A stretch of DNA of 40,675 nt from Bacillota bacterium (GTDB lineage Bacteria > Bacillota > SHA-98 > UBA4971): positions 1-40,675 of the forward strand of contig JAAYXB010000040.1 of assembly GCA_012516125.1 (NCBI GenBank). The letters run 5' to 3'. Every line of letters starts with the position of its first letter. The stretch's first letter is position 1. A program made the translations under genes and the position numbers. The notes under the pieces were generated by a model that had not been told where the DNA came from, did not search any database, and was given only the letters and a program-made list of their open reading frames with translations. This document shows positions 21,820 to 24,570 of this stretch, in pieces.

Positions 21820-22019
21820 CTAAGTGAGGGTGCAGAAATGCTCCCGACTTTTGGGAGGGGTTGCCGGTGATTACACGAGGGGCGTCAAAATCCGGCCACT
21901 GGCTAGACGGGCCGGATTTTTGGCGAAGCGCGCCCCGCTTGGGGCGCCATCCCCGAGTGCAACACCGGCAACCTGGCAACTACTGGAAGAGGGGCGAGAA
22001 CTAACGCACCCTCACTTGG
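21820..22019 (+). mobile_element. 200-bp MITE-like element, copy 3 (intact)
   Basis: Uninterrupted 200 bp copy, ends CTAAGTGAGGGTGC and GCACCCTCACTTGG. Nested inverted arms from outside in: the terminal repeat, GGTTGCCGGTG with CACCGGCAACC, ACGAGGGG with CCCCGAGT, AAAATCCGGCC with GGCCGGATTTT. It encodes nothing. No clear target duplication flanks it. Confidence 0.9.
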
Positions 22020-22020
22020 C

Positions 22021-22135
22021 CAGGCAGCCAGCTACCCAGCCAGCCAGCCAGCCAGCCTGCCAGCTAGCTAGCCAGGAAGCGAGCTACCCGGCCAGCCAGT
22101 CATCCGGCAGCTAGCCAGCGATCCAGTCAGCCGGC
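22021..22135. repeat. CCAG tetranucleotide repeat tract
   Basis: Imperfect tandem CAGC/CCAG units fill about 115 bp directly after the right end of MITE copy 3. Runs such as CCAGCCAGCCAGCCAGCC are near-perfect; others are interrupted by GCTAG. No coding function is evident. Confidence 0.8.
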
Positions 22136-22150
22136 AGCCCGGATACGGGT

Positions 22151-23016
22151 GATCGCCCGAGGGCGAGGTCGGGGCTAAACCTGGTCCCGTGGGGATCAGG
22201 CTCGCTCGGAATCTGGTCCTCCGGAAACCACCCCTGCCGCGCTCCGTCGCTACAACCGGGCAAGGTGGAGCACCAGGGACCAGATCCCGCCTGAAGATAG
22301 TCCTCTCGGGACCAGCTTGGCGCGCGTTCTGGTCCTCTCGTGACCGGGACGCGTCGGCCGCCGCCGGGGGTGGTGCACCAGGGACCAGGTTGCCCGCGAG
22401 GTTGATCCCCTGGGGACCATCCGCACGCAAATCCTGGTCCCTTGGGGACCAGGGGTTTCGGGACATCTCGCAAGGTGGTTACGTGGGGACCAGGTGACGG
22501 GCGAAGTTGGTCCCCAGGGGACCGTCTTCGCGCGTAACCTGGTCACCAGAGGACCAGATCCGGCATCCTCGTGGAGCGGGTGTCAGGAGGGTGGGTCTCT
22601 GGTAACCAGATTCCGCACGGGGTTGGTCCCTCAGGGACCAGGTGTACGCAGATCCTGGTCCTTTGAAGACCACCCGTCCACGGCCACCCGTGGAGGTGGT
22701 CCCCTGGGGACCAGACGGCGGACGAACCTGGGTCCCTGGGGACCATCTTTGCGTGGGTCCTGGTCACCAGGGGACCAAGTTCGGCGTCTTGCCAGTTGAA
22801 CCGCTAGTAGTCTGCTCCAAAACCGCCCGTGCCGCGCCCATGGGACAATCGGTACGCCGCCTAGCTGCGGATTTGCGGGCTGAGCCTGCAGTCGCTAGAG
22901 TCGCGCGCGAGTTTCGGAGCACGCTTCTAGGAGGGTGGGTCTCTGGTAACCAGATTTCCCGCGGGGTTGGTCCTCCAGGGACCACCCGCGCGAGGGATCC
23001 TCGGTTCTCAGGGACC
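22151..23016. repeat. phased array of 15-bp palindromes in triplets
   Basis: About 20 imperfect palindromes of the form GGTCC-N5-GGACC start at 22183, 22215, 22267, 22299, 22331, 22372, 22404, 22436, 22477, 22509, 22541, 22593, 22625, 22657, 22698, 22730, 22762, then 22937, 22969 and about 23002; a diverged first unit is at 22151. Steps are 32 bp within a triplet and 41 or 52 bp between triplets; a 175 bp step precedes the last triplet. Spacers within a triplet are conserved, and the second resembles the reverse complement of the first, so each triplet (79 bp) is a nested palindrome. The array lies between MITE copy 3 and cotJA. No gene spans it. Function unknown. Confidence 0.9.
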
Positions 23017-23470
23017 ACCCAGCGACGACCGCTGCCGCGAGCCCGCCGTGGCCTTCCGGTCGAGCGCATGTTCGGCCGCCCTTGTTGTCGCCCTTGTTGT
23101 GAGCTTTGCCGCAGCGTGGTCCACCGGATGTGGTTGCCGCTCGGGCTTGTTTTGCGGCGACCCGGTCGCTCGGCGTGGTTTTCGCACCGTTCCTGTCCTG
23201 TGGGCATAGAATGTCACAGGAGCCATGCCGTGGTCGGAAGCGGCGACCGGCGCCGCCTTGCGCCACAGCGCGGGCAAAGCCTGGTCGCTCGGCACACTGT
23301 GTACTTGCCCTCAGCCCCGCCGGTTCACCTAGACGCGAGGGATGGAGCGGAGGCATGAGGCGTTCCGGGGCCACCGGCCGTGCCGAGCTACACCCCGCGG
23401 CACCATGCTGCCGCATTCCGTCCGGCACGGCACCGCGAATGAGACGACCAGACGCGAGGAGGAATAGCGA
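23017..23470. other. gene-free stretch upstream of cotJ
   Basis: No protein or RNA gene is recognised. The part next to cotJA should hold its sporulation promoter, but no convincing sigma-E or sigma-K hexamers were picked out by eye. Confidence 0.4.
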
Positions 23471-23668
23471 ATGGCAGATACGAAGCCGAACACCCCAAAC
23501 AACACCAGCCCTCAGGAGGGGGAGACTACGGGCTATTTCGGCGAGCTTGCCCGAGCGTACATCGTGCCGCAGATGTACTCGCGCATCTGGAGCCCCGCAG
23601 AGGGCCTGATGAAGGGGACGATCTTTCCGGAGCTGTACCGGCCGTATGAGCCGGGGATGCGGCCATGA
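23471..23668 (+). CDS. cotJA: spore coat associated protein CotJA
   Basis: 65 residues. The C-terminal half YIVPQMYSRIWSPAEGLMKG followed by TIFPELYRPYEP is the CotJA signature; the N-terminal 25 residues are a polar tail. GAGGAGG lies seven bases before ATG. First gene of cotJA-cotJB-cotJC, made in the mother cell and assembled into the inner coat in Bacillus. Confidence 0.92.
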   Translation: MADTKPNTPNNTSPQEGETTGYFGELARAYIVPQMYSRIWSPAEGLMKGTIFPELYRPYEPGMRP

Positions 23669-23718
23669 TGAGGACTACCGGGGCTGGTCCCAGGAACCCA
23701 GAGACGGAGGGATGGCAC

Positions 23719-23979
23719 ATGGACCAGAGACGTCGAGAACTCCTGCGGATCATGGAGCTGGAGTTTGCGGCCATAGAACTCAACTTGTTTCTGGACACCC
23801 ACCCGGATGAGCCGCGCGCCCTCGCCGACTACAACGCGGTGGCACAGGAGCTAATGAGGGCGAAAACGGCGTACGAGTCACGCTACGGGCCTATCCTGAA
23901 CTACGGGCAGAGCATGAGCCAGGAGACCTGGCGCTGGGTGGAGGATCCGTGGCCGTGGGAGATCACCTTTAACAGGTAA
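23719..23979 (+). CDS. cotJB: spore coat protein CotJB
   Basis: 86 residues. The pattern MDQRRRELLRIMELEFAAIE then LNLFLDTHPDEPRAL, the AKTAYESRYGPI segment and the Trp-rich end WRWVEDPWPWE are typical of CotJB. ATG 23719 is preferred over 23665 because GGAGGGA stands six bases upstream and the product then starts like the family. It follows cotJA and precedes cotJC by 18 bp. Confidence 0.92.
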   Translation: MDQRRRELLRIMELEFAAIELNLFLDTHPDEPRALADYNAVAQELMRAKTAYESRYGPILNYGQSMSQETWRWVEDPWPWEITFNR

Positions 23980-23997
23980 CAGGAGGGAGTGACGAGC

Positions 23998-24570
23998 ATG
24001 TGGATATATGAGAAAAAGCTCGAGTATCCCATCAGGGTATCGTATACCAACCCTAGGCTGGCCAAGGAGATCATCACCCAGTACGGCGGGCCTGATGGCG
24101 AACTGGCAGCGTCCCTGCGCTATCTCACCCAACGGTATACCATGCCAACACCGCAGGCCAAGGCGGTACTGACGGACATCGGCACCGAAGAGCTAGCGCA
24201 CATGGAGATCGTGGCGGCCCTCGTCTACAACCTCATCAAGAACGCAACGGTGGAGGAGATCAAGGCCGCGGGCCTCGACGACTACTATGCCGACCACGAC
24301 AAGGCGCTGTACTTCGTCAACGCCGCAGGCGCACCATGGGTGGCCAGCTACATTCAATCCAAGGGAGACCCCGTCACCGACCTGCACGAGGACATGGCCG
24401 CCGAGCAGAAGGCAAGATCGACCTACGAATACCTCATCCGGCTTTCGGACGACCCGGACGTCACGGATGCCCTGCGTTTTCTCAGGGAGCGCGAGATCGT
24501 GCACTTCCAGAGGTTCGGGGAGACGCTGAACCTGGTGCACGAGTGGATGGACTCGAAGAAAGTGTTCTGA
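23998..24570 (+). CDS. cotJC: spore coat protein CotJC (manganese catalase family)
   Basis: 190 residues of the ferritin-like manganese catalase family. Metal-ligand segments are visible: an early Glu (in RLAKEIITQYGG or near it), DIGTEELAHMEIV (Glu and His) and the later EDMAAEQKARSTYEYL and REREIVHFQRFGE. The start MWIYEKKLEYPI is the family N-terminus; AGGAGGG lies ten bases upstream, and a GTG at 23989 would add three residues. It may detoxify peroxide in the spore coat. Confidence 0.94.
   Translation: MWIYEKKLEYPIRVSYTNPRLAKEIITQYGGPDGELAASLRYLTQRYTMPTPQAKAVLTDIGTEELAHMEIVAALVYNLIKNATVEEIKAAGLDDYYADHDKALYFVNAAGAPWVASYIQSKGDPVTDLHEDMAAEQKARSTYEYLIRLSDDPDVTDALRFLREREIVHFQRFGETLNLVHEWMDSKKVF

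Follow-up and report, generated by a model that had tools for sequence, protein, structure and literature searches.

A dispersed Bacillota element with terminal inverted repeats and an internal array of helically phased palindromes, a candidate scaffold for protein binding

We found that the palindrome array in this DNA is the interior of a dispersed repeat, and we propose that this repeat is a compound mobile element whose dyads form a phased binding array, a joint reading to which we give a probability of about 0.58. That the locus is a compound non-autonomous element with terminal inverted repeats (TIRs) and an internal palindrome satellite is very probable, given the dispersal of the copies, their TIRs and the empty sites found in related genomes. 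That the dyads form a phased array of sites for a putative protein we consider rather probable on sequence grounds, namely the conservation of the dyads, the depletion of indels and the 10.5-bp phase.

The window, i.e. the whole stretch of 40,675 bp that was analysed, belongs to the draft genome of an uncultured Bacillota bacterium, 3.2 Mb in 98 contigs (G000), which we compared with five congeners: G004 (JACIXY01, "Bacillota bacterium MAG-64"), G001, G002, G003 and G005. The repeated unit is of the 17-mer type TGGTCC-N5-GGACCA, and a scan of the whole window with it gave 10–12 matches out of 12 in the array and at most 9 at all sites outside. The perfect GGTCC-N5-GGACC form is present in a few units only, and the outer TGG...CCA is near-invariant. 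Dyad units of the main array start at 22150, 22182, 22214, 22266, 22298, 22330, 22371, 22403, 22435, 22476, 22508, 22540, 22592, 22624, 22656, 22697, 22729 and 22761, and three further units at 22936, 22968 and ~23001. Between the 17 units from 22182 to 22761 the steps are of 32 bp (11 times), 41 bp (three times) or 52 bp (twice). The original prediction, made from the window alone, had described this run of 17 units with the same step counts, which are exact on re-scanning, and the unit that it had placed before the run and the three that it had placed after it are likewise present in the scan. The units fall into triples, with steps of 32 + 32 bp inside each triple and of 41 or 52 bp between triples, and the spacing has a superperiod of 221 bp (105 + 116 bp).

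The step of 175 bp from 22761 to 22936 holds a 126-bp insertion; only 3 bp stand in its place in the G004 orthologue, a net difference of 123 bp, so that the uninterrupted step is 52 bp. The inserted repeat also has stand-alone copies, ~98% identical, elsewhere in the genome, and its ends resemble CTAGAAGCGTGCTCCGAAAC inverted repeats. The window copy has no terminal TIRs. A CCAG-rich tract forms its left edge, next to MITE-b, a repeat with dozens of copies across G000, G001, G002 and G003. On the right it is truncated and ends just past the last unit, as does its G004 orthologue, and both lack the tail, the MITE and the right TIR that intact copies have. The features of the locus are collected in Table 1.

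Table 1. Features of the palindrome-array locus, in window positions.
Feature	Positions	Strand	Basis
MITE-b, adjoining dispersed inverted-repeat element, ends CTAAGTGAGGGTGCG and complement	21820..22017	.	
CCAG-rich low-complexity leader, left edge of the window copy	22019..22139	.	Also in some other copies, e.g. L101, L106, L098
Main palindrome array, 18 dyad units in six triples	22150..22777	+	Unit scan, spacing, copy alignment
126-bp insertion of another dispersed repeat	22805..22930	.	Genome copies; not in the G004 orthologue
Last three units of the array, set apart only by the inserted repeat	22936..23017	+	Unit scan; G004 orthologue
Right limit of element-like sequence in the truncated window copy	23018..23040	.	

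As for the neighbourhood, a segment with ABC-2 transporter genes (~18.9–21.8 kb of the window) separates the array from the gene that is its direct neighbour in G004, and this segment is seemingly missing from the G004 orthologous locus. Downstream of the array, at 23472–24570, a small ORF precedes a gene resembling manganese catalase (Pfam Mn_catalase), a layout which we take to recall the cotJABC spore-coat operon. A 5S rRNA gene (Rfam RF00001) is found at the left end of the window, at 56–172.

Homologues of the array were found at more than 30 places in the source genome. Since ~20 of these touch contig ends, we estimate the real number of arrays at roughly two dozen, and these MAGs are fragmented partly because of the arrays, in which ~20 contig ends of the draft fall. 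G004 has many arrays and G001 two decayed ones; none were found in the congeners G002, G003 and G005, in 11 further genomes of the class, or in 55 relatives outside the genus, a set that overlaps with the class genomes. A two-dyad pattern allowing at most 2 mismatches occurred 169 times in G000, 179 times in G004, twice in G001 and not once in the other 14 class genomes. Apart from JACIXY01, a scan of 84,980 species genomes gave matches in four single contigs from unrelated genera. By our own estimate chance alone would yield about half a match; these four may be chance matches or small unrelated repeats. The plasmids, phages and viral contigs searched gave no array match. At the 18 loci examined the element is intergenic, except for one doubtful overlapping ORF call. 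The original prediction had named random unit spacing in related genomes as the result that would speak against it; the related arrays keep the same steps, and the order of the steps is common to all array copies.

Alignment of the copies revealed conserved sequence on both flanks of the array. The element is bounded by inverted repeats, of the type CTATAGATAGCCAAC at the left end and the complement of this at the right end. L105 (1599 bp) and L087 (1631 bp) have such TIRs at both ends, and many truncated copies have one at a single end. Intact copies measure 1.3–1.6 kb, have no conserved reading frame and consist, in order, of the outer TIR, a MITE-related left end, a short GC hairpin, an array of variable length, a tail of ~170 bp and a 112–118-bp MITE with the opposite TIR. 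Between the conserved ends the number of 221-bp modules varies. The right-hand 114 bp of the element are a copy of a MITE that also occurs alone, at 112–118 bp, in G000, G001 and G003, and the left end is MITE-like and varies between subfamilies. Since the copies do not all have the same left MITE, the whole may not be a single unit, and the array would then be a passenger between MITEs.

Comparison with orthologous sites provided empty sites for two of the copies. At the site of G002 that corresponds to L093 there is no element, and homology ends 4 bp short of the left TIR. G001 likewise lacks the L087 element at the corresponding site; here homology ends ~8 bp short of the left TIR and resumes ~36 bp past the right TIR. 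The sequence of the empty sites has diverged, and a target duplication is therefore not readable there. Inside a CRISPR array of G001 (contig C36, 3291–3628, L145) sits a 338-bp element that shares its ends with these copies but has hardly any palindrome array, and that is flanked by an 11/12-bp duplication. No clear target-site duplication was seen in L105, L087 or the small MITEs. The transposase families searched were DDE_Tnp_1 and Y1_Tnp, and none of the DDE_Tnp_1 genes of G000, G004 and G001 has the TIRs of the element. An IS4-type (DDE_Tnp_1) partner was set aside, as matching TIRs were not found.

The steps had been predicted to lie close to 3, 4 and 5 helical turns, so that all sites would face one side of the helix. 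This agrees with the phase coherence of the 18 main-array units, which is 0.95 at 10.50 bp, the best period within 9.5–12 bp. When the same layout was given three random step lengths (25–60), 0.5% of the trials matched that coherence, a modest significance (~0.005), as no more than three of the step lengths are independent. In 28 arrays taken together, 492 of 524 steps deviate from an integral number of turns by at most 0.1 turn, most of these steps being inherited copies and not independent events. Tandem duplication of the 105/116-bp triple accounts for much of the quantisation, which therefore does not amount to 16 independent observations. Two arrays, L021 and L018, contain odd steps of 63 and 94 bp, which equal normal steps plus ~22 and ~21 bp, i.e. 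two helical turns, as if only phase-keeping insertions persisted; the cases are too few to test.

The main rival of the phased binding array is a neutral satellite, that is, a MITE-like internal tandem repeat that would owe its spacing to duplication of a 221-bp unit and its uniformity to gene conversion, with no binding protein. We judge it unlikely, while giving it real weight. It is in line with the way in which the array splits into 105/116-bp triples, and also with the finding that divergence exceeds that of the flanks in some orthologous arrays, as expected if copies convert one another. The latter is the case for the pairs L088/L105 and L091/L108, and suggests gene conversion or misassembly of short-read MAGs, so that arguments for selection are weakened for these two pairs. 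However, a neutral satellite does not predict dyads half as variable as the spacers and exactly in register. Among 25 aligned arrays, the variability between copies was 0.059 in units and 0.119 in spacers, and this contrast is maximal exactly in register, reversed half a period off, and persists for all four bases outside CpG (p = 4e-11). When triples are compared within one consensus array, units are 76% identical and spacers 56%. Nor does it predict that indels should be several times rarer in the array than elsewhere in the element. Gap openings per mismatches were 37/2456 in the arrays, 14/190 in the left part of the element, 19/187 in its right part and 35/268 in MITE-b, which makes indels in arrays 5–9 times rarer than in most comparison repeats; by the same measure the small MITE-114 family, with 6 gap openings/293 mismatches, has few indels too. 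Finally, it does not predict the contrast between units and spacers that is seen between orthologues at the window locus: in the pair formed by the window copy and L036, 8 of 306 unit sites differ versus 32 of 322 spacer sites (p = 1.4e-4), with a difference of ~3–7% in the flanks.

A structured RNA, in which the array would be transcribed and its palindromes would form a chain of hairpins, had been offered by the original prediction as the alternative to a binding array, and our data make it improbable. Both strands do fold more stably than shuffled sequences (z = -7.2 and -10.7), a result expected of any palindrome array, and at some loci the element sits between co-directional genes. Against this, double-sided pair changes do not exceed those of slid controls (13 cells vs 18 at slide -3), a consistent G-U preference is absent on both strands, and the 10.5-bp phase is not expected of RNA. 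Further, the Rfam families detected in the array were all below the gathering score, with only miRNA-like sub-threshold matches to inverted repeats. A protein-coding explanation of the periodicity, also envisaged beforehand, fails as well, as no frame is open: stops occur in nearly every frame of 25 arrays, and the unit steps are not multiples of 3. The minus strand of L087 does have an open stretch of 322 codons, but this was rejected too, not being conserved in L105.

Even if mobile in origin, the arrays could also be retained by the host, as sites for partition or for organising the chromosome. The conservation of dyads continues past speciation at the window locus, and several orthologous arrays are common to two species, as such a role would have it; but the arrays are missing from three congeners of similar genome size and two copies are absent at orthologous sites, and we hold this reading to be more improbable still than the RNA. 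The original prediction of a cooperative binding array is borne out in part. The binding array itself gained from the phase, the conservation of dyads and the depletion of indels, whereas the proposal of a unique partition site, origin or nucleoid anchor does not fit a dispersed TIR element that is present or absent at orthologous sites. Operator arrays or parS-like arrays of dimeric DNA-binding proteins consist of repeated dyads at whole-turn spacing, with both the sites and the spacing constrained. Our array is like them in all of these respects, and differs in that it rides a mobile element in dozens of copies and in that its motif was not recognised as a known operator.

Known families of dispersed repeats resemble the element in part. 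Prokaryotic MITEs usually measure 50–500 bp (review PMC10969869). The element shares with them its TIRs, the lack of coding capacity, many dispersed intergenic copies and presence or absence among relatives; its 112–118-bp relatives with the same ends are ordinary MITEs, and these and the 338-bp form fit the MITE length, whereas the compound form of 1.3–1.6 kb exceeds it and contains an internal constrained satellite. The BOX elements of Streptococcus pneumoniae have the structure boxA-boxB(n)-boxC and measure 67–637 bp (PMC3049150). The likeness to BOX is in architecture only: both are dispersed, mostly intergenic and non-coding, with fixed ends, a variable count of tandem internal modules, inverted-repeat ends and nesting with other repeats. 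Unlike BOX, the array element reaches 1.3–1.6 kb, its modules are dyad triples phased at 10.5 bp, and it has no Rfam match. BIMEs, which are made of REPs, bind gyrase, IHF and Pol I and have been proposed to be non-autonomous mobile elements (PMC2817692). They too have regularly spaced palindromes between genes, but RAYT is absent from the array genomes, and the element has TIR ends and is built of triples of 17-bp dyads, where BIMEs have REPs that alternate in orientation. A REP/BIME element spread by a RAYT (Y1) transposase, which the intergenic arrays of regularly spaced palindromes would recall (PMC2817692), is thus the least credible reading, since Y1_Tnp (PF01797) had no match in the array-bearing G000 and G004 (G003 has one match and no arrays) and the copies end in TIRs and flanking MITEs.

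Returning to the compound mobile element with a phased binding array, we infer its mobility as one unit, the origin of the array and the existence of a binding protein. The element would have spread into intergenic sites, some of which are common to two congeners, and the array would have grown inside a nearly array-less element by tandem duplication of the 105/116-bp triple. The palindromes would be the binding sites of a putative dimeric, sequence-specific DNA-binding protein. With the sites on one face of the helix (steps of ~3, 4 and 5 turns), bound dimers could touch each other or bend the DNA coherently, and the protein would serve either the element, in transposition or silencing, or the host. 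A more specific version, in which a mobile element with its own phased operator array of ~20 dyads, in dozens of copies, recruits the putative dimeric protein as a cooperative filament or a wrapped complex, is tentative and on the whole doubtful.

If the operator-array reading is true, the host gains hundreds of ordered binding sites. Dispersed repeats of the BOX or BIME kind are common and poorly explained, and an internal satellite that keeps its sites and their rotational phase across species divergence provides a testable case in which such a repeat may be a scaffold for protein binding, and not only selfish debris.
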